This document shows positions 38,360-47,031 of a DNA stretch of 64,000 nucleotides, piece after piece. Numbering within the stretch: the first letter of the stretch is position 1; every line of letters begins with the position of its first letter. Position numbers and translations under genes: made by a program. The stretch is from Klebsiella aerogenes. GTDB lineage: Bacteria; Pseudomonadota; Gammaproteobacteria; Enterobacterales; Enterobacteriaceae. Location of the stretch: positions 4,090,422 through 4,154,421 of the forward strand of contig CP119076.1 of NCBI GenBank assembly GCA_029027985.1. The letters run 5' to 3'. A model generated the notes under the pieces. It was not told the origin of the DNA. It saw only the letters and a list, made by a program, of their open reading frames with translations, and did no database searches.

Positions 38360-39376
38360 TTAATCGCCCCGGCGAAAACCACAAGATTCGCGGATCACCA
38401 GCGCGGGCGGAAGAATAATACGTTTCGGCGGCTCATCATTGCCCTGAATACGGCTATATAGCAGCTCGCCGGCTTTACGCCCAATCTCTTTCGCTGCCAC
38501 CGAAACGGTGGTTAGCGCAGGCTGGACCAACGCCGCTTCGGTAATATCATCGAAGCCCACCAACGCAAAATCTCGCCCCGGCTCGCGGCCCATTTTACGC
38601 AACGCCTGCATCACTCCCAGAGCGACAATATCCTGATAGCAAACGGCAGCGGTAATTTGCGGATGTTGGGATAACAGCGACTCCGCCACTTTGGCACCAT
38701 CAATCTGGCTTGCCTGCGCGGTGACGATCCACTGTGGATTTGGAGAAATACCGCTTTCCAACAGCGTGCTGGTAAAACCGCCAATGCGTTGCGCCCGGGT
38801 GCCGGAACTCGGGCTACCACCAATAAAGGCGATATTCTGATGACCCATTTTTAGCAGATGCGTCGTCGCCATCTGGGTACCAAGAAAGTTATCGGTGCCG
38901 ACAAAATCAAAGTCCGGATCGCTCAGCGGACGTACCACCATAATGGCCGGGATATTGCGTCTTTTCAGCGCATCGAAAAACGAGGACGGTGTTTCCCGTG
39001 CCGCGCACAGCACCATCCCGCAGGCACTATTGCGCATCAGCGAATCAACAAACTTCTGTTGGCGTTCGCCAGACTCTTCACTGTTAGCCAGAAACAGCAG
39101 TAAATCATGGCGTTCCATTTCATGGCTCAGTCCCGCCGTCATCTCGCCATAAAACGGGTTGGTGATGTCATGTAACAGTAATCCAACTTGGTTACTGCTA
39201 CGGTTGCGTAAGTTGGCGGCAGTCTGGTTGTAGACATAGCCGGTATCATCCAGCGCTTTCAATACCCGGTCCCGCGTGGCCTGCGAAATACGTCCCCGAT
39301 TACGCAATACCATTGAGACGGTTGCCGTAGAGACCCCGGCCCGTTCGGCAACCTGCGCCAGCGTCACTGTCGTCAT
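38360..39376 (-). CDS. LacI-family repressor of the PTS locus
   Basis: A 338-residue LacI-type regulator with helix-turn-helix VTLAQVAERAGVSTATVSMVLRN and a ligand domain resembling MalI in LLHDITNPFYGEMTAGLSHEM and SSGTRAQRIGGF. The ATG at 39376 follows aggagg. It is divergent from the PTS operon. GATTAATCGATTAACC-type palindromes occur in the shared region and again in front of the cupin isomerase operon at 45300. It therefore probably represses both, with a phosphorylated sugar as likely inducer. The ligand is unknown. Confidence 0.87.
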   Translation of the reverse strand: MTTVTLAQVAERAGVSTATVSMVLRNRGRISQATRDRVLKALDDTGYVYNQTAANLRNRSSNQVGLLLHDITNPFYGEMTAGLSHEMERHDLLLFLANSEESGERQQKFVDSLMRNSACGMVLCAARETPSSFFDALKRRNIPAIMVVRPLSDPDFDFVGTDNFLGTQMATTHLLKMGHQNIAFIGGSPSSGTRAQRIGGFTSTLLESGISPNPQWIVTAQASQIDGAKVAESLLSQHPQITAAVCYQDIVALGVMQALRKMGREPGRDFALVGFDDITEAALVQPALTTVSVAAKEIGRKAGELLYSRIQGNDEPPKRIILPPALVIRESCGFRRGD

Positions 39377-39400
39377 GATTCCTCCTGTTCGTTCACATCA

Positions 39401-39416
39401 GATTAATCGAATAACC
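39401..39416. promoter_or_regulatory. Operator copy 1 (one mismatch)
   Basis: gattaatcgaataacc differs by one base from the exact operator pair at 39523 and 45300. It lies 25 bp upstream of the lacI-type gene, suggesting autoregulation. Confidence 0.6.
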
Positions 39417-39435
39417 TAAAAATTGCATTTTTCCC

Positions 39436-39451
39436 TGTGACCACACTCACA
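39436..39451 (+). promoter_or_regulatory. Consensus CRP site of the PTS operon
   Basis: tgtgaccacactcaca fits the CRP consensus tgtga-N6-tcaca at every defined position. It lies between the repressor gene and the PTS operon, so both directions could be cAMP-dependent. Confidence 0.8.
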
Positions 39452-39490
39452 TTAACACCCATTTCACCCACTACGTTGCTGGTTATGCCG

Positions 39491-39507
39491 GGTTAATCGC
39501 GTTAACC
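39491..39507. promoter_or_regulatory. Operator-like palindrome with altered centre
   Basis: ggttaatcgcgttaacc has the same ggttaa/ttaacc arms as the other operators but a centre one base longer. It may be a weaker auxiliary operator. Confidence 0.5.
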
Positions 39508-39522
39508 ACACTATCAAAATGA

Positions 39523-39538
39523 GGTTAATCGATTAATC
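39523..39538. promoter_or_regulatory. Main operator of the PTS operon
   Basis: ggttaatcgattaatc has an even centre, ttaatcgattaa. It is the exact reverse complement of the site at 45300-45315 and lies 27 bp before the first PTS-operon ATG, a good position for repression. Confidence 0.72.
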
Positions 39539-39565
39539 TTAATTTAGCGAATACGGAGAGAAAAT

Positions 39566-41311
39566 ATGCAAACGACCTATGATAAATTCCCTGAAGTGGT
39601 TGTTCAGGGTTACGACGACCAAGCCTGGCAAGGCTGGGAGGCCATCTCCACGGCGCTTAATACCCGAATCGCCACCCAGTCCAGAACTATTGTGGTTGTG
39701 GATTGTTATCCAGGCGTCTGGCTTGCTGAGCTGGAGCAACGCCTGCTGCCGTTACTCAATGCCACACTGGCGCTCAACGTCGAATCTGCCCGCCGGGATG
39801 AACAAGCGCTACACGACCTGCTGGCCCGCAACCTCACCGACGACCGCGTATTCGGCGTCCTCTCCTGTCATCATCTGAATGAGTTTTTTGATGAGGAAAA
39901 ACTATGCCGGATGCGCCAGCAAATCGACGCCACTAGCAAGGGCGTCATTGTCGTCTACGGGCCAGGCGCGACATTAGTTCATCCGGGCGATGTTCTGATT
40001 TACGCCGACCTGCCGCGCTGGGAAATTCAGCAACGTATGCGCCACGATGGGCTGGGCAACTGGGGGGCTAAGAACCAGGATGAAGATATTCTTCGCCGCT
40101 ACAAGCGCGCCTTTTTTATTGAATGGCGGGTCTTCGATCGCCATAAAACACCGCTGCTCAAGCGAACCGATTTTTTACTCGATACCACCATAGAGAATGT
40201 CCCGATGCTGATCAGCGGAGACGCGCTGCGCGCCGGACTGCAACAAACCACCACTCGTCCATTCCGCGTTGCTCCCTTCTTCGACCCCGGCGTCTGGGGT
40301 GGGCAGTGGATGAAACAACAGTTCGATCTCGATCCCACGGCGCCCAACTACGCATGGTGTTTTGATTGCGTGCCCGAGGAAAACAGCCTGTTACTGCGTT
40401 TTGGCAACGTGCGGATCGAGATCCCCTCTCAGGACCTGGTACTGCTATACCCTCGTGCGCTGCTTGGTGAAAAGGTTCACGCCCGATTTGGAGCGGAATT
40501 TCCGATTCGCTTTGATTTTCTCGACACCATCGGCGGGCAAAATCTGAGTTTTCAGGTCCACCCGCTAACCGAATATATCCAGCAGCAGTTTGGTATGCAT
40601 TACACCCAGGATGAGAGCTACTACATTCTCGAAGCAGAGCCAGATGCGGTCGTTTATCTCGGCACCAAAACCGGCATTGAGCCGCAGGCGATGCTGGACG
40701 ACCTTCGCGCCGCCGGTCGTGGAGAAAAAGCGTTCAACGATGCGCGTTTTGTTAACTCGATCCCGGCGCAGAAGCACGATCACTTTTTGATCCCGGCCGG
40801 AACGGTCCACTGCTCCGGTAGCGGCACGATGGTACTGGAGATCAGCGCCACACCGTATATTTTCACCTTCAAGTTATGGGACTGGGGCCGACTGGGCCTC
40901 GATGGTTTACCACGTCCCGTACATCTCGATCACGGCGAGCAGGTTATAGACTGGCAGCGTGATACACAGTGGGTCGAGGAGAACCTGGTGAACCGTATCG
41001 ATCTCATCGCCGAAGGTGAAGGCTGGCGGGAAGAGCGAACCGGGATGCACGAACGCGAGTTTATCGAAACCCGTCGCCACTGGTTCACCAAACCGGTTAT
41101 TCACCACACGCAAGGCGGCGTTAACGTGCTGAACCTGGTGGAGGGCGCGAAGGCGGTGGTCGATAGCCCAAGCGGAGCATTCGAGCCCTTCACCGTTCAT
41201 TATGCCGAGACCTTTATTATTCCCGCCGCAGTCGGTGAATACCGGATTTCACCCGCAGGCGAAGGCGTCAGGCAACCGCTCGCCACTATAAAAGCCTGGG
41301 TAAGAGGATAA
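39566..41311 (+). CDS. Class I mannose-6-phosphate isomerase-like protein with kinase-like N-terminal domain
   Basis: A 581-residue protein of two parts. Residues 232-581 form a class I phosphomannose isomerase (cupin) with probable metal ligands Gln330 and His332 in SFQVHP, Glu350 in QDESYYILEA and His415 in PAGTVHCSGSGTMVLEI. Residues 1-230 look like a P-loop nucleoside kinase fold, but the loop position reads VVVDCYPGVWLAEL and lacks the GKS/T signature, so ATP binding is doubtful. E. coli ManA is about 390 residues. It heads the PTS operon and likely isomerises the incoming hexose-6-phosphate to fructose-6-phosphate. Substrate unknown; the kinase assignment of the N-terminal part is my inference. 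Confidence 0.78.
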   Translation: MQTTYDKFPEVVVQGYDDQAWQGWEAISTALNTRIATQSRTIVVVDCYPGVWLAELEQRLLPLLNATLALNVESARRDEQALHDLLARNLTDDRVFGVLSCHHLNEFFDEEKLCRMRQQIDATSKGVIVVYGPGATLVHPGDVLIYADLPRWEIQQRMRHDGLGNWGAKNQDEDILRRYKRAFFIEWRVFDRHKTPLLKRTDFLLDTTIENVPMLISGDALRAGLQQTTTRPFRVAPFFDPGVWGGQWMKQQFDLDPTAPNYAWCFDCVPEENSLLLRFGNVRIEIPSQDLVLLYPRALLGEKVHARFGAEFPIRFDFLDTIGGQNLSFQVHPLTEYIQQQFGMHYTQDESYYILEAEPDAVVYLGTKTGIEPQAMLDDLRAAGRGEKAFNDARFVNSIPAQKHDHFLIPAGTVHCSGSGTMVLEISATPYIFTFKLWDWGRLGLDGLPRPVHLDHGEQVIDWQRDTQWVEENLVNRIDLIAEGEGWREERTGMHEREFIETRRHWFTKPVIHHTQGGVNVLNLVEGAKAVVDSPSGAFEPFTVHYAETFIIPAAVGEYRISPAGEGVRQPLATIKAWVRG

Positions 41312-41315
41312 ATAC

Positions 41316-41744
41316 ATGATCAACGTGATTGTCGCCAGCCACGGTCCTCTCGCTGACGCTCTGCTCGCCAGCAGTCGGATGGTTTACGGTGAATTACCGC
41401 ATGTTTTCACCGTGACGCTTAGCGAGCAGGCGGGCATTGAAGGCTTTAAACAGGATTTCGCCACGACGCTGAAAAACGCAGGGCACAACGCTGATGGCGT
41501 GCTGGTGTTATGCGATATGCAAAGCGGGACCCCGTGGAACGTCGCCTGCCAGTATGCATTTTCCGCTGGAACAACGCCTCCGCTCGCCGTCATCGCGGGA
41601 GTGAATTTTCCCATGCTGCTGCAAAGTGAAGACATTAGCCATTTCACTGACGTTCATGCCGCAGCCGAGCAACTGCTGGAAATGGCCGTCCCGACGCTGA
41701 TAAAAGCCGCCCCGGTTTTATCTATTCAGTCAGATGATTTTTAA
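41316..41744 (+). CDS. PTS Man-family EIIA component
   Basis: A 142-residue cytoplasmic phosphocarrier of the mannose/fructose/sorbose (Man) PTS family. The phosphorylation site is His9 in VIVASHGPLADALL. LVLCDMQSGTPWNVA is the second family landmark. It accepts phosphate from HPr and passes it to EIIB. It is a separate protein here, as in sorbose and N-acetylgalactosamine systems, not fused to EIIB as in E. coli ManX. It starts four bases after the isomerase stop. Confidence 0.9.
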   Translation: MINVIVASHGPLADALLASSRMVYGELPHVFTVTLSEQAGIEGFKQDFATTLKNAGHNADGVLVLCDMQSGTPWNVACQYAFSAGTTPPLAVIAGVNFPMLLQSEDISHFTDVHAAAEQLLEMAVPTLIKAAPVLSIQSDDF

Positions 41745-41755
41745 AGGAAACCGCT

Positions 41756-42250
41756 ATGAGTATCTCTTTTGTTCGTATTGATGACCGCGTTATCCACGGG
41801 CAGCTCGTGACACGTTGGGCCAAAGAGCTGCCCTGCGATGGGATTATCGCTATTGATGATGCCGTCGCGGCCGACCCGCTGCTCTCATCGGTGATGAAAG
41901 GAGCCGTACAGGACACCAAAGTCTGGCTGTTCGATACCGCAACGGCAATTGAAAAGCTGCCCAAGGTGATCGCCAGCGAGAAGCACTATTTCGTTATCGG
42001 CAAATCCCCGCTCACTCTGCAACGCATTGAGCAAGCGGGGATTAGCCTAAAAAACGCCAACGGCAAAATCAACGTTGGCCCGATGAGCGCACGTGCCGAT
42101 ACCACCACCATCGGCCCGAATCAGTCGGTCAACGCGGACGAGATCGCTGCCTTTGACTGGCTGGTTCAGCACGGGCATCACGTGGAATTCCGCCTGGTAC
42201 CGGATGCCAGCTGCTACAGCTGGCAGGACGCCCGACAGAAGCTGAAATAA
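41756..42250 (+). CDS. PTS Man-family EIIB component
   Basis: A 164-residue EIIB with the family signature FVRIDDRVIHGQLVTRW, where His14 is the phosphorylated residue. NVGPMSARADTT is the typical mid-protein motif. It phosphorylates the sugar as it crosses through EIIC-EIID. Its sequence is of the mannose/sorbose type; similarity alone does not give the sugar. Confidence 0.92.
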   Translation: MSISFVRIDDRVIHGQLVTRWAKELPCDGIIAIDDAVAADPLLSSVMKGAVQDTKVWLFDTATAIEKLPKVIASEKHYFVIGKSPLTLQRIEQAGISLKNANGKINVGPMSARADTTTIGPNQSVNADEIAAFDWLVQHGHHVEFRLVPDASCYSWQDARQKLK

Positions 42251-42260
42251 GGAGCAAACG

Positions 42261-43058
42261 ATGATTATCGAAGCTACGCTAATTGGCATTCTCTGTTACC
42301 TGGGTGCGCTGAGCAGTCCCTGGCTTCTGGGGTTGACCGGCGGCTGGTACCTGATTACCCGACCACTGGTTTCCGGAATGCTGGTCGGGCTTATTCTCGG
42401 CGATCTGAAAACCGGGATCCTGATAGGCGTTGCGGTACAGGCGGTATATATCGCAATGGTGACGCCAGGCGGCTCAATGCCTGCGGATCTCAACTTTGTC
42501 GCTTATCCGGCCATCGCGCTGGGTATTTTGTCGGGCAAAGGGCCGGAAGTGGCGGTGGCGCTGGCGGCAACAATCGGTATCGCCGGAACCATTTTATTCA
42601 ACGCGATGATGGTGCTGAACTCCTTCTGGAACCACCGGGCCGACGTGGCGTTGGATCGTAGCGATGAGCGCGGGCTGTATCTGAACAGCGCTATCTGGCC
42701 TCAGGTGACTAACTTCATTTTACGTTTCGTACCCACGTTTATCGCGGTCTATTTCGGCGCACAGTACATCAGTGGTTTTATGGACAGCCTACCGAAAATC
42801 GTGCTGTCGACGATGAACGTGCTGGGCGGCATCCTGCCTGCCGTCGGGATCGCGATCCTGCTTAAGCAAATCATTAAAAACTACACCATGCTGATCTACT
42901 TTCTGGTCGGTTTCGTCTGCATCGTTTTTTTAAAGCTCAACATGGTCGCACTGGTGATCGTCGGTTCGCTACTGGCGCTTATTCATTACAACTATAAGCC
43001 GGAACCACCGCAGGCTGCGGGCGCGAGACCGGTGGTCGATGATGAGGATGAATTCTGA
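42261..43058 (+). CDS. PTS Man-family EIIC component
   Basis: A 265-residue integral membrane subunit. The N-terminal IEATLIGILCYLGALSSPWLLG and GLILGDLKTGILIGVAVQAVYI are standard EIIC(Man) segments; about seven hydrophobic helices are visible. With EIID it forms the sugar channel. The last base of its stop codon is the first base of the EIID start, a one-base overlap that couples translation. Confidence 0.93.
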   Translation: MIIEATLIGILCYLGALSSPWLLGLTGGWYLITRPLVSGMLVGLILGDLKTGILIGVAVQAVYIAMVTPGGSMPADLNFVAYPAIALGILSGKGPEVAVALAATIGIAGTILFNAMMVLNSFWNHRADVALDRSDERGLYLNSAIWPQVTNFILRFVPTFIAVYFGAQYISGFMDSLPKIVLSTMNVLGGILPAVGIAILLKQIIKNYTMLIYFLVGFVCIVFLKLNMVALVIVGSLLALIHYNYKPEPPQAAGARPVVDDEDEF

Positions 43059-43876
43059 TGGAAGACCGCACTCTTACCCGTAAAGATCTGCGCCGCTGCT
43101 GGCGGGCGTGGATGATGCATAATTTGTCGTCAATGAGCTTTGAGCGCCTTGAGTCCTTCGGCTTTTGCCTGAGCATGCTGCCGGTGGCGAAAAAACTCTA
43201 CCCGGATGCCACCCAGCGTACCGAGATGCTGCGTCGCCACGCTTCGTTCTATAATACGGAGCCGCAGATCGGCGCGATCGTTAACGGTATGGCACTGGGA
43301 CTGGAAGAGAAAAAGGCCAACGGCGAACCAATCGACGGCGAGACGATCAACACCCTTAAGGTGGGTCTGATGGGGCCGATTGCCGGGATCGGGGATTCGA
43401 TGATCCCTGGAATGTTGATCCCTATTCTGCTCAGTATCGGCATGGCGCTAGCGGCGGGCGGTAATATTCTTGGGCCGCTGTTTTACACCGTCGCCTGGCT
43501 GGCGATTATCCTGCCCGGTTCGTGGTTCCTGTTTCTCAAAGGTTACAAGATGGGCTCCGGCTCGGTGGAGATGCTGGTCAGCAGCAAATCAACCCGCCTG
43601 CGCGAAGCCTTGTCGCTATTAGGTGTTTTTGTGATGGGCGGCGTGGCGGCCAGCTACGTTAAGCTGGGTACCGGGCTGGAATTTATCACCCAGGATGGCG
43701 TCAATATCCACGTTCAGCAGATGCTGGACGGCATCTTCCCGCAGCTGCTGCCGCTGGTGGTGGTGTTAGGGACCTGGTATTTAATGGCGAAGCGCGGCGT
43801 TTCACCGGTGAAAGCGATGGTACTGCTGCTGGTGCTGGCAGCGCTTGGCGTCGCCAGCGGCCTGTTTGCCGGTTAA
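43058..43876 (+). CDS. PTS Man-family EIID component
   Basis: A 272-residue membrane subunit specific to Man-family systems. It begins with a soluble part (LTRKDLRRCWRAWMMHNLSS) and contains LMGPIAGIGDSMIPGMLIPIL, the conserved substrate-pathway segment. Presence of EIID confirms the Man family. It is the last gene of the plus-strand operon; a good terminator follows. Confidence 0.93.
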   Translation: MEDRTLTRKDLRRCWRAWMMHNLSSMSFERLESFGFCLSMLPVAKKLYPDATQRTEMLRRHASFYNTEPQIGAIVNGMALGLEEKKANGEPIDGETINTLKVGLMGPIAGIGDSMIPGMLIPILLSIGMALAAGGNILGPLFYTVAWLAIILPGSWFLFLKGYKMGSGSVEMLVSSKSTRLREALSLLGVFVMGGVAASYVKLGTGLEFITQDGVNIHVQQMLDGIFPQLLPLVVVLGTWYLMAKRGVSPVKAMVLLLVLAALGVASGLFAG

Positions 43877-43895
43877 TTTTTGTGGATGTGACACG

Positions 43896-43920
43896 CCGGG
43901 GCGTTCAGCCCCGGTTTTTT
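43896..43920 (+). terminator. Terminator of the PTS operon
   Basis: ccggggc (43896-43902) pairs with gccccgg (43908-43914), followed by six Ts. The T run touches the stop codon of the convergent cupin gene. Confidence 0.88.
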
Positions 43921-44701
43921 ATGGATGGAAGTTGCGCCACAGCTCCGCCGTTTTATCCGGGCGGGAGATAAACTGAAAGCGTGCCGGATCGTCAATAAAC
44001 TGCTGATAAATCGGGGCGGAGGTTATACCAAACTCGGTGTACTCCCGAGGGGTGACCGCCTGTAAACGTCCCGGAACGTAGCGCGGATTGTGCTGCCAGA
44101 CCACATGCTTATCCTGCAATAGCGGATACCACGCCAGCCCCTTATGCGCCCGTACGGCCTCATATTCAAAACCATATTCACGGTCACACCAGGCGCCAAA
44201 GGTAAGCGGCACTTCCGGGTTAGCTGATATTGTGGCATGCCCCCATCCCGGCGGGACCAGTACTTTTTCTCCTGGCCCAGCAATCACCGCAAAGCAGCGG
44301 CCCGGATCGTCCTCAACGTACTCCTGCATATAGATAATCGCGCTGCCCTGCCAGATTTCATATAGCTCCGGCGGCGACCAGCCGCTATGCTGGCTGACGC
44401 GATGAATATGCCCCTGGCTGCGAATCGGCTCTTCACCCAAGCGTCCGGCGGTATAGGTCACCACGCCGAACAAAAGCATCCGCTTTTGCAGCTCGTCGCG
44501 ATCCTGCATGCGCGCCACATCCATAGCGATAGCGTAAACGTCCTGCGGCCCGTCGCAATTCGGGTCACGCAGCGATGCGCGAATCTGATCGAGGCGGCGG
44601 ATCTCCGGCATCGGCCCGGTGACATCTTCGCCATAGCTAAAACCCAGCGGCTGATGATGAATCGCCATATCCAGGCCGTAACGGCGGGCTGAGTCAACCA
44701 T
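43919..44701 (-). CDS. Cupin-type glucose-6-phosphate isomerase, long form
   Basis: A 260-residue protein of the cupin phosphoglucose isomerase family (PF06560 type). Metal ligands are likely His98 and His100 in SQGHIHR, Glu112 in PPELYEIWQG and His155 in PPGWGHATIS. The ATG at 44701 has a textbook ribosome site (aaggagg) inside the end of the preceding gene, so the two overlap by eight bases. Cupin-type PGIs are convergent to the ordinary Pgi fold and have been characterised from archaea and, to my knowledge, from Salmonella. It should interconvert glucose- and fructose-6-phosphate or a related sugar phosphate. Confidence 0.8.
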   Translation of the reverse strand: MVDSARRYGLDMAIHHQPLGFSYGEDVTGPMPEIRRLDQIRASLRDPNCDGPQDVYAIAMDVARMQDRDELQKRMLLFGVVTYTAGRLGEEPIRSQGHIHRVSQHSGWSPPELYEIWQGSAIIYMQEYVEDDPGRCFAVIAGPGEKVLVPPGWGHATISANPEVPLTFGAWCDREYGFEYEAVRAHKGLAWYPLLQDKHVVWQHNPRYVPGRLQAVTPREYTEFGITSAPIYQQFIDDPARFQFISRPDKTAELWRNFHP

Positions 44702-45257
44702 TCTGCACCTCCTTTGCCTGAAAGGTCTGATTTTCCTCAATCACCCGCAGCGCAAAGCCGTCTGCCAGCGCGGCATAATCATGCCCGGCGACGGCGGGCC
44801 AAACCGCCAGCGCGGAAAGCACCTCGTCACCGGTATTGACAAGCCGGTGAGCGGTAAAACCAGGAATGATATGGACCGAACCGGCAAAGACCTTTTCCAG
44901 TCGTGCCTCACCTTGCTCATTTTGCAATAACAGCAAGCCGCTTCCGCGCAGGCCGAAATAGACTTCGCCCTGCTCGCGACGGTGATGGAAATGGCCGCGG
45001 GTCATAAAAAATTCATGGCCGACTTTGCCGGGATAAAGGTGAGTTACACCGGTGTAGAGTTCTCCCTCTGCCGGTGAAGTGGCTAGCATTTCAACATCAT
45101 AAACGCTGAGATCGCCGGGCATTGCCTGCCGGGCGAGTTCATCAACAAAAACCCCAGCAAGATCTCCGATTCGCGTTGATTTACGTAATAGCGGGCCGTC
45201 GGATAATGCTCCGCTGGCCCATGCCACCTGCGGTGGCTGGATAAAAACAGGGTTCAT
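44694..45257 (-). CDS. Cupin-type glucose-6-phosphate isomerase, short (archaeal-like) form
   Basis: A 187-residue cupin very similar in layout to Pyrococcus furiosus PGI (189 residues). LYPGKVGHEFFMTRGHFHHR and GEVYFGLRGSGLLLLQ align with the archaeal enzyme. The ligands fall at His89, His91, Glu98 and His137, one residue from the archaeal numbering. WPAVAGHDYAALADGF near the end is also shared. It is first in a two-gene operon whose upstream region carries the same operator as the PTS operon. It may form a hetero-oligomer with the overlapping longer paralogue, or the two may use different substrates. Confidence 0.82.
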   Translation of the reverse strand: MNPVFIQPPQVAWASGALSDGPLLRKSTRIGDLAGVFVDELARQAMPGDLSVYDVEMLATSPAEGELYTGVTHLYPGKVGHEFFMTRGHFHHRREQGEVYFGLRGSGLLLLQNEQGEARLEKVFAGSVHIIPGFTAHRLVNTGDEVLSALAVWPAVAGHDYAALADGFALRVIEENQTFQAKEVQNG

Positions 45258-45299
45258 ATGTGTCTCCGGCCCGAGGAGAACAGCACTGTCAGAATAGCA

Positions 45300-45315
45300 G
45301 ATTAATCGATTAACC
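45300..45315. promoter_or_regulatory. Operator of the cupin isomerase operon
   Basis: gattaatcgattaacc is the exact reverse complement of the PTS-operon operator at 39523-39538. It lies 43 bp upstream of the short cupin isomerase ATG on the minus strand. Confidence 0.72.
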
Positions 45316-45335
45316 TTCTATCAAAATGGCGGCTT

Positions 45336-45382: not shown

Positions 45383-46012
45383 TCACTCCAGAGCGTAGTT
45401 TACGATCATCTGGCCCTTCTTCATCTTCACCTGAGTCACCATCACTTTTCCTAGCTCAGAAAGGCTGGCAACGTGGGTGCCGCCGCAGGGATAAGCCGGC
45501 AGCTCGCCAAACCCCACCGTGCGCAAACCGTCGGCGAAGGTCACGCGGCGCGGTAAATCCTGCCTCTGCCACGCCGCAACCTGCGCCAGCAGGGCGCTGG
45601 CTTCCGGCAACACCGCGCCGGCCCCGGCGGTAAAAGTAATCCGTCCTTCTCCCGGCCAGTGATGCGCTTTCACCGGCCGCCAGCCAAACTGCTCGCCCGC
45701 CAGACCCAACAGGTGGCCAGCGGAATGCAGGCGGGCATGCAACTGCCGCGCAGGTGCATCAATTCGCATCTCCACCTCGCCCAACGGCAGCGGCTGTGAG
45801 ACGATATGCAGTACGCTATCGCCGCGTGCGGCGACCGCCATCACCGCCTGACCGGCAATCCAGCCGCCATCGGACGGTTGGCCACCGCCTTGCGGATGAA
45901 ACAGGGTGCGGTCCAGTTCAATAGCGTAACGGCCATCGGCTTCGGCGGTGCAGCCAACAACCTGCGCGCGCCCTTCAGTGGCGTCGCTGGTGTAATAAAG
46001 ACGTTCAGTCAT
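45383..46012 (-). CDS. AlaX-type alanyl-tRNA editing protein
   Basis: A stand-alone editing domain of 209 residues that should hydrolyse mischarged Ser-tRNA(Ala) or Gly-tRNA(Ala). Zinc ligands are visible as the two histidines of ARLHSAGHLLG and the Cys/His of PCGGTHV. FHPQGGGQPSDGG is the AlaRS-like N-terminal motif. The ATG at 46012 follows agaggag. It is divergent from a LysR-type gene with a 92 bp gap. No alanyl-tRNA synthetase catalytic domain is present. Confidence 0.88.
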   Translation of the reverse strand: MTERLYYTSDATEGRAQVVGCTAEADGRYAIELDRTLFHPQGGGQPSDGGWIAGQAVMAVAARGDSVLHIVSQPLPLGEVEMRIDAPARQLHARLHSAGHLLGLAGEQFGWRPVKAHHWPGEGRITFTAGAGAVLPEASALLAQVAAWQRQDLPRRVTFADGLRTVGFGELPAYPCGGTHVASLSELGKVMVTQVKMKKGQMIVNYALE

Positions 46013-46104
46013 GGTTGTTCTCCTCTCTGTCAACACAGTATATTGATATTACCGACAGCGATAATCCCATCGACAACCAATGCACTTTTGCTTTGAGAGC
46101 ACAA

Positions 46105-47031
46105 ATGAACCTGAACCTCCTGCCGGACCTCGCCCTCTTCGTACAGATCGTCGAACAAGGAAGCTTTTCCGCCGTCGCCCGCCAGAACGGACTCACTCCT
46201 TCCGCCGTCAGCCGCAGTGTCTCGCGACTGGAACAGGAAATGGGTTGCAAACTACTGCATCGCACTACCCGCAAGCTTCGCCTGAGCGATGCCGGAAAAA
46301 CGGTGTATGAACATGCGCTGGAGATGCTGGAGGCGGCGCGGCAGGCGATGGACTCCGCCGGCAGCACCCAGGCGGTGGCGCAGGGTAAGCTGACCCTGAG
46401 CGTGCCAAAAGCCGTCGGGCGCTTTGTGATCCATCCGCTGATGATGGAGTTTTTCAGCCGTTATCCGCAGGTGGACGTCTGCCTGCGGCTGGAAGATCGC
46501 GATCTCGACTTTATCGACGACGGCATTGATTTAGCGCTGCGCATCACCCATACCCCCTCCCCCGGTCTGCACGGCAAACCGCTGATGCCGGTCACCCATG
46601 TTATCTGCGCCACCGAGGAATATTTACAGCGCCATGGCATGCCGCACACACCACAGGATCTGCGCGCGCATAGTTGCATCAGCCTTGGCGAAACGCCCGC
46701 CGACGCGCGCTGGAAATTCCGTCGCGAGGGCAAAACCGAAACCATCCAAACACACGGGCGTTACGCCGCCAACCATACCGCCGTTCGCCTTGATGCCGTT
46801 AAGCAACACCTGGGTATCGGCAGCCTGCCGTTGTTTACCGCCCGTGAGGCGCTGGCGCGCGGTGAAATCGTGCAGGTGTTAGCAGAGTGGGAGTTTATCA
46901 GCAGCTACTCCGGCAACCTGTGGCTGCTGTGGGCGGGCCATAAGCATATGCCCGCCAGAATGCGGGCGATGATTGATTATCTTAACGAGAAGGTGCCGGC
47001 GCTGCTACCGACTATGGCGCCAGAGCGATAA
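46105..47031 (+). CDS. LysR-family transcriptional regulator
   Basis: A 308-residue LysR-type regulator. The winged helix-turn-helix is [17 protein letters not shown] through [19 protein letters not shown]. The effector domain includes [20 protein letters not shown] and [16 protein letters not shown], typical of the CrgA/AaeR-like branch. I start at the ATG at 46105; an upstream in-frame ATG at 46015 would overlap alaX. The divergent arrangement suggests that it controls alaX, itself or both. Its stop lies 20 bases inside the end of convergent rihC. Confidence 0.85.

Follow-up and report, generated by a model that had tools for sequence, protein, structure and literature searches.

A PTS-fed hexose-6-phosphate module of Klebsiella aerogenes, possibly centred on mannose, with two divergent isomerases

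Between dapB and rihC in a 64,000-nt stretch of Klebsiella aerogenes DNA (contig CP119076.1, assembly GCA_029027985.1; hereafter the window), eight genes at 38360–45316 encode a LacI repressor, a 581-aa isomerase fusion, the EIIA, EIIB, EIIC and EIID components of a Man-family phosphotransferase system (PTS) and two overlapping cupin proteins (cupin 1 and cupin 2). The gene set is real, co-regulated and common to several phyla. At a probability of about 50%, we read it from its sequence as a hexose-6-phosphate module centred on mannose, in which two of the putative isomerases are divergent. The PTS would take up and phosphorylate mannose, and probably other hexoses too, yielding mannose-6-phosphate, which the fusion would convert to fructose-6-phosphate through a modified phosphomannose isomerase mechanism in which the usual lysine plays no part. 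Cupin 1, judging from its conserved residues, would interconvert fructose-6-phosphate and glucose-6-phosphate. Cupin 2 would be the second divergent isomerase beside the fusion, and might isomerise hexose-6-phosphates in a way that sustains the flow of glucose-6-phosphate when mannose-6-phosphate is high. The LacI protein would keep both operons repressed via their common operators until the sugar or sugar phosphate appears.

Gene content, operators and conservation

The fusion and the four PTS genes form a five-gene operon (fusion-EIIA-EIIB-EIIC-EIID) that is faced by the repressor gene. The cupin genes, which overlap by 8 bp, are convergent to it. All module proteins except the fusion passed a Pfam cut-off, among them the four PTS components (EIIA-man, PTSIIB_sorb, EII-Sor and EIID-AGA; 4/4), and the genome contains five EIID matches, this one included. 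Compared with known Man-family PTS loci (ManXYZ, Aga, Sor), the module has a full complement of four EII proteins from matching families, but these do not reach the cut-off of any NCBIfam PTS model that they match and are paired with this particular set of isomerases. The repressor combines a helix-turn-helix with a sugar-binding domain and a palindromic operator, as expected of the LacI family.

Three 18-bp operators were found, two in the gap between the repressor and fusion genes and one upstream of cupin 1. The operator pattern matched six times (three sites, each on both strands), where 0.28 matches were expected. Among 64 related loci, 56 have an exact core TTAATCGATTAA in the repressor-fusion gap and 50 have one upstream of cupin 1, rising to 63 and 59, respectively, with at most one mismatch; letter-shuffled controls at that tolerance gave 0/320 at each of the two sites. 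On these predicted sites, both operons are co-regulated through one operator. The gene content and shared operators described in a first-pass annotation of this DNA are thereby confirmed (eight genes, three operator copies), and its picture of a self-contained, co-regulated, PTS-fed hexose-phosphate module gains support. Since the genome also encodes manA and pgi, with one match each, the module isomerases are extra enzymes.

A scan of genome contigs for cupin 2 returned 212 relatives, the best 80 of which were analysed (66 enterobacterial loci and 14 from other phyla). The full set of eight genes was recovered in 64/66 enterobacterial loci. LacI is present in 64/66; one exception (L088) is a locus without LacI that ends at the contig end, and the other (L083) holds only the cupins, the remaining module lying elsewhere in the same genome, adjoining dapB. 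Ratios of nonsynonymous to synonymous substitution rates (dN/dS) of 0.012–0.208 (40 comparisons: eight genes in five relatives) place the module genes under purifying selection. Within the genus, 7/19 relatives carry a full-length fusion, and all seven have the whole module. A class-wide genome sample matched only in the window's own genome (1/274). Complete E. coli genomes gave no module match at megablast sensitivity, the flanking DNA being found in 5375/5426; one entry of the contig collection that bears the name E. coli (L046) does carry the module. dapB and rihC lie within the fetched flanks of 40/66 and 35/66 enterobacterial loci, respectively, which fits an old residence of the module. 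PHROGs, as far as a search for mobile origin went, held no match for any of the three isomerases.

Active sites of the three isomerases

Residues 228–581 of the fusion have the phosphomannose isomerase fold, and the metal ligands Q330, H332, E350 and H415 are kept in 77/77 aligned rows (65 enterobacterial, 12 other). Relative to type I phosphomannose isomerases (B. subtilis 1qwr and S. typhimurium ManA), the fusion differs at two active-site positions, each invariant in the same 77/77 rows: Gln348 occupies the site of the catalytic lysine, and Asp317 that of ManA Lys86. The lysine assignment is based on B. subtilis Lys114, with which Gln348 aligns; MAFFT misplaces ManA Lys132/Glu134. In one report, Lys116 of the B. 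amyloliquefaciens phosphomannose isomerase is described as taking the C2 proton (PMC4718643). The fusion is thus without the lysine to which, following that report, this step is attributed in type I enzymes, and the first-pass view of it as a plain mannose-6-phosphate isomerase is not upheld. The A. fulgidus relative 1zx5, itself unassayed, also has no lysine at this position in the alignment. When 14 fusions from loci with and without cupins were aligned, Gln348 and Asp317 likewise showed no variation, and both occur in four fusions from cupin-free loci (Listeria, Parabacteroides, Deinococcus and Streptomyces).

The fusion further differs from type I enzymes by an additional N-terminal domain of no recognised family. 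Residues 1–225 had no known sequence match, a profile of 15 such domains reached a best E of 0.24 against the PDB, and no Pfam family exceeded its cut-off; a fold search with the whole fusion model returned a match list filled by the isomerase domain. The idea that the domain is a P-loop kinase relic was dropped, as neither the PDB profile search nor Pfam supports it, and hhalign against uridine-kinase-family loci of the same genome gave ~0.1% (three templates, one of them a wrong 37-aa frame). Separately, another genome of the same family encodes a 48% identical fusion beside an AGE-type epimerase, a mannitol-dehydrogenase-like protein and Man-family and fructose-family PTS genes (L034). No cupins were found in that stretch, which by its gene content is another kind of sugar locus that makes use of this fusion.

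Most of the pocket of cupin-type phosphoglucose isomerase (PGI) is preserved in cupin 1, and the metal ligands and both of the pocket's conserved threonines are in place. T72, T86, H89 and H91 are present in 66/66 enterobacterial rows and E98 and H137 in 65/66; in the other 14 rows, T86, H89, H91, E98 and H137 are all retained (14/14), and position 72 is threonine in eight and serine in six. The nearest known cupin-type PGIs are those of T. litoralis (1j3p) and P. furiosus (1x82), along with a relative on S. meliloti pSymB; a tryptophan at the position of Tyr152 sets cupin 1 apart from them. On these residues it looks like an ordinary cupin PGI.

Cupin 2 shares the cupin-PGI fold and metal ligands, but four pocket positions are changed in 80/80 loci: V81, S95, C172 and F178 replace T71, T85, Y152 and H158 of the P. 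furiosus enzyme. The threonines T71 and T85, conserved among cupin PGIs, have a role in substrate binding; valine and serine stand in their place in every one of the 80 loci. Inserted residues separate the HxH from the Glu ligand in cupin 2, and its C-terminus is longer than that of cupin-type PGIs. The proposal of two plain phosphoglucose isomerases probably fits the ordinary-looking cupin 1 and does not fit cupin 2, with its altered pocket.

A third cupin PGI is encoded in the same genome (L145:2955-8593; G000:C1:1151954-1157592), in a row with an SgrR-like regulator, a ptsG-like EIIBC, hxlB and hxlA. The ptsG-like and hxlA proteins are 98% identical, and that of hxlB 93%, to those of a Salmonella IncI plasmid (L026), and a sugar/formaldehyde operon may possibly have been exchanged between chromosome and plasmid.

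Could the module simply duplicate Pgi and ManA under common regulation? With no special substrate, its enzymes would serve as metal-dependent stand-ins whenever Pgi or ManA is inhibited or becomes limiting. Pgi is inhibited by mannose-6-phosphate, cupin 1 resembles a plain cupin PGI, and pgi and manA are each present with a single match; the invariant pocket substitutions of both cupin 2 and the fusion, and the very presence of two cupins, are left unexplained, and we regard such a duplicate as improbable.

The main rival, which we hold to be unlikely though less so than a duplicate, is a dedicated pathway for a hexose beyond Pgi/ManA (e.g. allose, altrose or another epimer), in which the fusion and cupin 2 would catalyse consecutive new isomerisations on the 6-phosphate and cupin 1 would finish or assist. 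In its favour, the altered active-site positions of both proteins are fixed across phyla, and the fusion accompanies cupin 2 in 80/80 cases (77 locally, three elsewhere in the genome). On the other side, Gln348 and Asp317 are shared by fusions of cupin-free loci, mannosidase loci among them, and no epimerase, aldolase or sugar kinase was seen as a module member among the open reading frames (ORFs) read in the window. A dedicated reaction beyond Pgi/ManA, as the first-pass annotation had suggested, is thus possible because the fusion is without the catalytic lysine and the cupin 2 pocket is changed; its reasoning from the number of isomerases does not carry over. It is somewhat more doubtful still that the fusion and cupin 2, as a linked pair found in six phyla going by record titles, perform new consecutive isomerisations on hexose-6-phosphates outside glucose, fructose and mannose and, with cupin 1, could funnel several D-hexose-6-phosphates into fructose-6-phosphate. 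If the pair did perform new chemistry, it would offer metal-dependent isomerases for rare-sugar synthesis.

What is new in the module, as the alignments read, is that two of the three isomerases depart from the residues that mark their namesake families, and not the gene count. Public records call these proteins mannose- or glucose-phosphate isomerases, names that the active sites of two of the families do not fit; databases may thus misname a common family, and the module spans several phyla. Among the top matches listed in a literature search, no paper on this gene set was recognised; regulon tables were not covered, so that a published regulon entry may exist.

Sugars suggested by neighbouring genes

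Of 17 plasmid records holding most of the fusion, ten neighbourhoods were opened, nine of them annotated and one unannotated. Glycoside hydrolase (GH) genes of alpha-mannosidase-type families (GH92, GH76, GH38 or GH125) are present in 5/9 annotated neighbourhoods, two of which (H13 and H17) belong to distant relatives at 35–38% identity, and a ROK protein is present in 7/9. GH38 was found in 8/66 enterobacterial loci and shares a gene run with the fusion in three (L058, L064 and L078); Superficieibacter (L062) has two fusion copies, one adjoining GH38 and the other in the module. GH38 also lies in the stretch around a Cohnella fusion copy and a second spirochaete fusion copy, both apart from cupins. 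The spirochaete stretch (L129:2417-14000) contains, in addition, a glycerate-kinase-like gene and an MGH1-like hydrolase, a combination that suggests mannosylglycerate breakdown. Several relatives have genes for a GH38 protein and a fructose-family EIIABC next to the module, as in mannosylglycerate-type loci (MngA/MngB), whereas the window module has neither.

A tree of 38 fusions (three rows ungrouped, a few rows with long branches), in which 'no cupin' denotes none in the stretch read, requires eight changes in cupin partnership, at least six of them forced by well-supported branches. Partnership is not clearly clustered (46/500 shuffles were as low; 33 with the opposite label), and a Hymenobacter fusion with cupins is sister to a Hymenobacter fusion with GH92 (100/100). 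Because partnership does not follow the tree, the presence of cupins probably makes no difference to the fusion reaction, and the failure of the tree to split cupin from cupin-free loci also speaks against the dedicated pathway for a rarer hexose. Together with the hydrolase neighbours of fusion relatives and GH38 in 8/66 loci, the mixed tree points to mannose as the shared theme. The earlier argument that extra isomerases imply an unusual sugar is therefore not supported in that form.

In the 14 loci outside Enterobacterales, both cupins are always present (14/14), with a local fusion in 12, a ROK sugar kinase in eight and a match to a major facilitator superfamily (MFS) sugar porter in nine, one of them weak; Persicobacter has the gene run cupin 1-ROK-fusion-cupin 2. 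No Man-family PTS was detected in these 14 loci, which, along with the ROK kinase in 8/14, suggests a free sugar, once phosphorylated, as the isomerase substrate. A local cupin 1 accompanies cupin 2 in every one of the 80 loci, and a local fusion does so in 77; in the remaining three (L083, L110 and L111) the fusion lies elsewhere in the genome. In Parabacteroides distasonis, cupin 1-ROK-cupin 2 lie on one record and the fusion on another record of the same strain. Among less similar cupin 2 loci, all three isomerase genes are present in L134; L133 and L156 combine cupin 2 with the fusion, no cupin 1 having been found in the stretch, and L156 possesses a Man-family PTS like the window. At E 1e-60, cupin 2 is rare (3/345, 2/398 and 1/296 genomes in three phylum samples, with the centre genome counted each time). 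An apparent kinase-cupin fusion in L111 was rejected, since its 539-aa ORF is merely an overextended frame and the kinase has a separate one. Adjoining a spirochaete cupin module, two tandem ~680-aa proteins (L112:1435-5516) without a Pfam or NCBIfam match at E 1e-5 may be unrecognised glycoside hydrolases.

Several observations weigh against a mannose-centred module. The housekeeping Pgi and ManA are already there, the fusion has Gln348 for the catalytic lysine, and a plain PGI would not need the pocket changes of cupin 2. No such mannosidase gene occurs in 4/9 annotated fusion neighbourhoods, and no ROK kinase was seen in 6/14 non-enterobacterial loci. Near non-enterobacterial cupin 2, 20 chosen neighbour proteins were scanned; they included GH13-like (L101, L107), GH127-like (L104, L106), GH1 (L114) and GH2 (L023, L109) hydrolases, and GH38 only in L102, in a protein that blastp missed and Pfam detected. 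Being mostly not mannose-specific, these hydrolases favour the dedicated pathway for another hexose; their use for identifying the sugar of non-enterobacterial loci was abandoned, since the families are mixed and give no single answer.

The hydrolases also bear on a fourth, very improbable account, in which the substrates would be mixed mannose/glucose saccharides or sugars, the fusion serving mannose-6-phosphate and the cupins glucose-6-phosphate released in parallel. GH1 and a lactose-family EIIC lie inside the module in 2/66 enterobacterial loci (L057, L062) and beside it in L114, and the GH38 and fructose-family EIIABC genes of other loci would also fit such a scheme; yet neither GH38 (8/66) nor GH1 (2/66) was found in the window or most enterobacterial loci, and two cupins for one sugar remain unexplained.

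Feature coordinates and flanking genes

Table 1. Genes and sites of the module, in window coordinates
Feature	Position	Strand	Basis
LacI-family repressor (MalI-like)	38360..39376	-	Pfam LacI + Peripla_BP; NCBIfam MalI subfamily 314.1 vs cut-off 310
Predicted LacI-type operator, imperfect copy	39400..39417	.	1–2 mismatches to RGATTAATCGATTAAYC, two strands
Predicted LacI-type operator upstream of fusion gene	39522..39539	.	0–1 mismatch
581-aa fusion: N-terminal domain ~1–225 (unclassified) and phosphomannose-isomerase-fold domain ~228–581	39566..41311	+	
PTS EIIA, Man family	41316..41744	+	EIIA-man 59.3 bits
PTS EIIB, Man/Sor family	41756..42250	+	PTSIIB_sorb 125.1 bits
PTS EIIC, Man/Sor family	42261..43058	+	EII-Sor 218.3 bits
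PTS EIID, Man family	43058..43876	+	EIID-AGA 293.6 bits
Terminator-like hairpin between convergent operons	43895..43922	+	Consensus scan; whole scan modestly above shuffles, 12 vs 7.7
Cupin 2, 260-aa cupin-PGI-fold protein, changed substrate pocket	43919..44701	-	
Cupin 1, canonical-looking cupin-type phosphoglucose isomerase	44694..45257	-	GPI 85.8 bits; T. litoralis PGI E 3.5e-40
Predicted LacI-type operator upstream of cupin 1	45299..45316	.	0–1 mismatch

Between cupin 1 and rihC, the window carries an AlaX-like gene (45383–46036) and a LysR-type gene (46015–47031), both named from sequence. Among relatives, the two genes were found at this site in some cases only, making this a second variable insertion.

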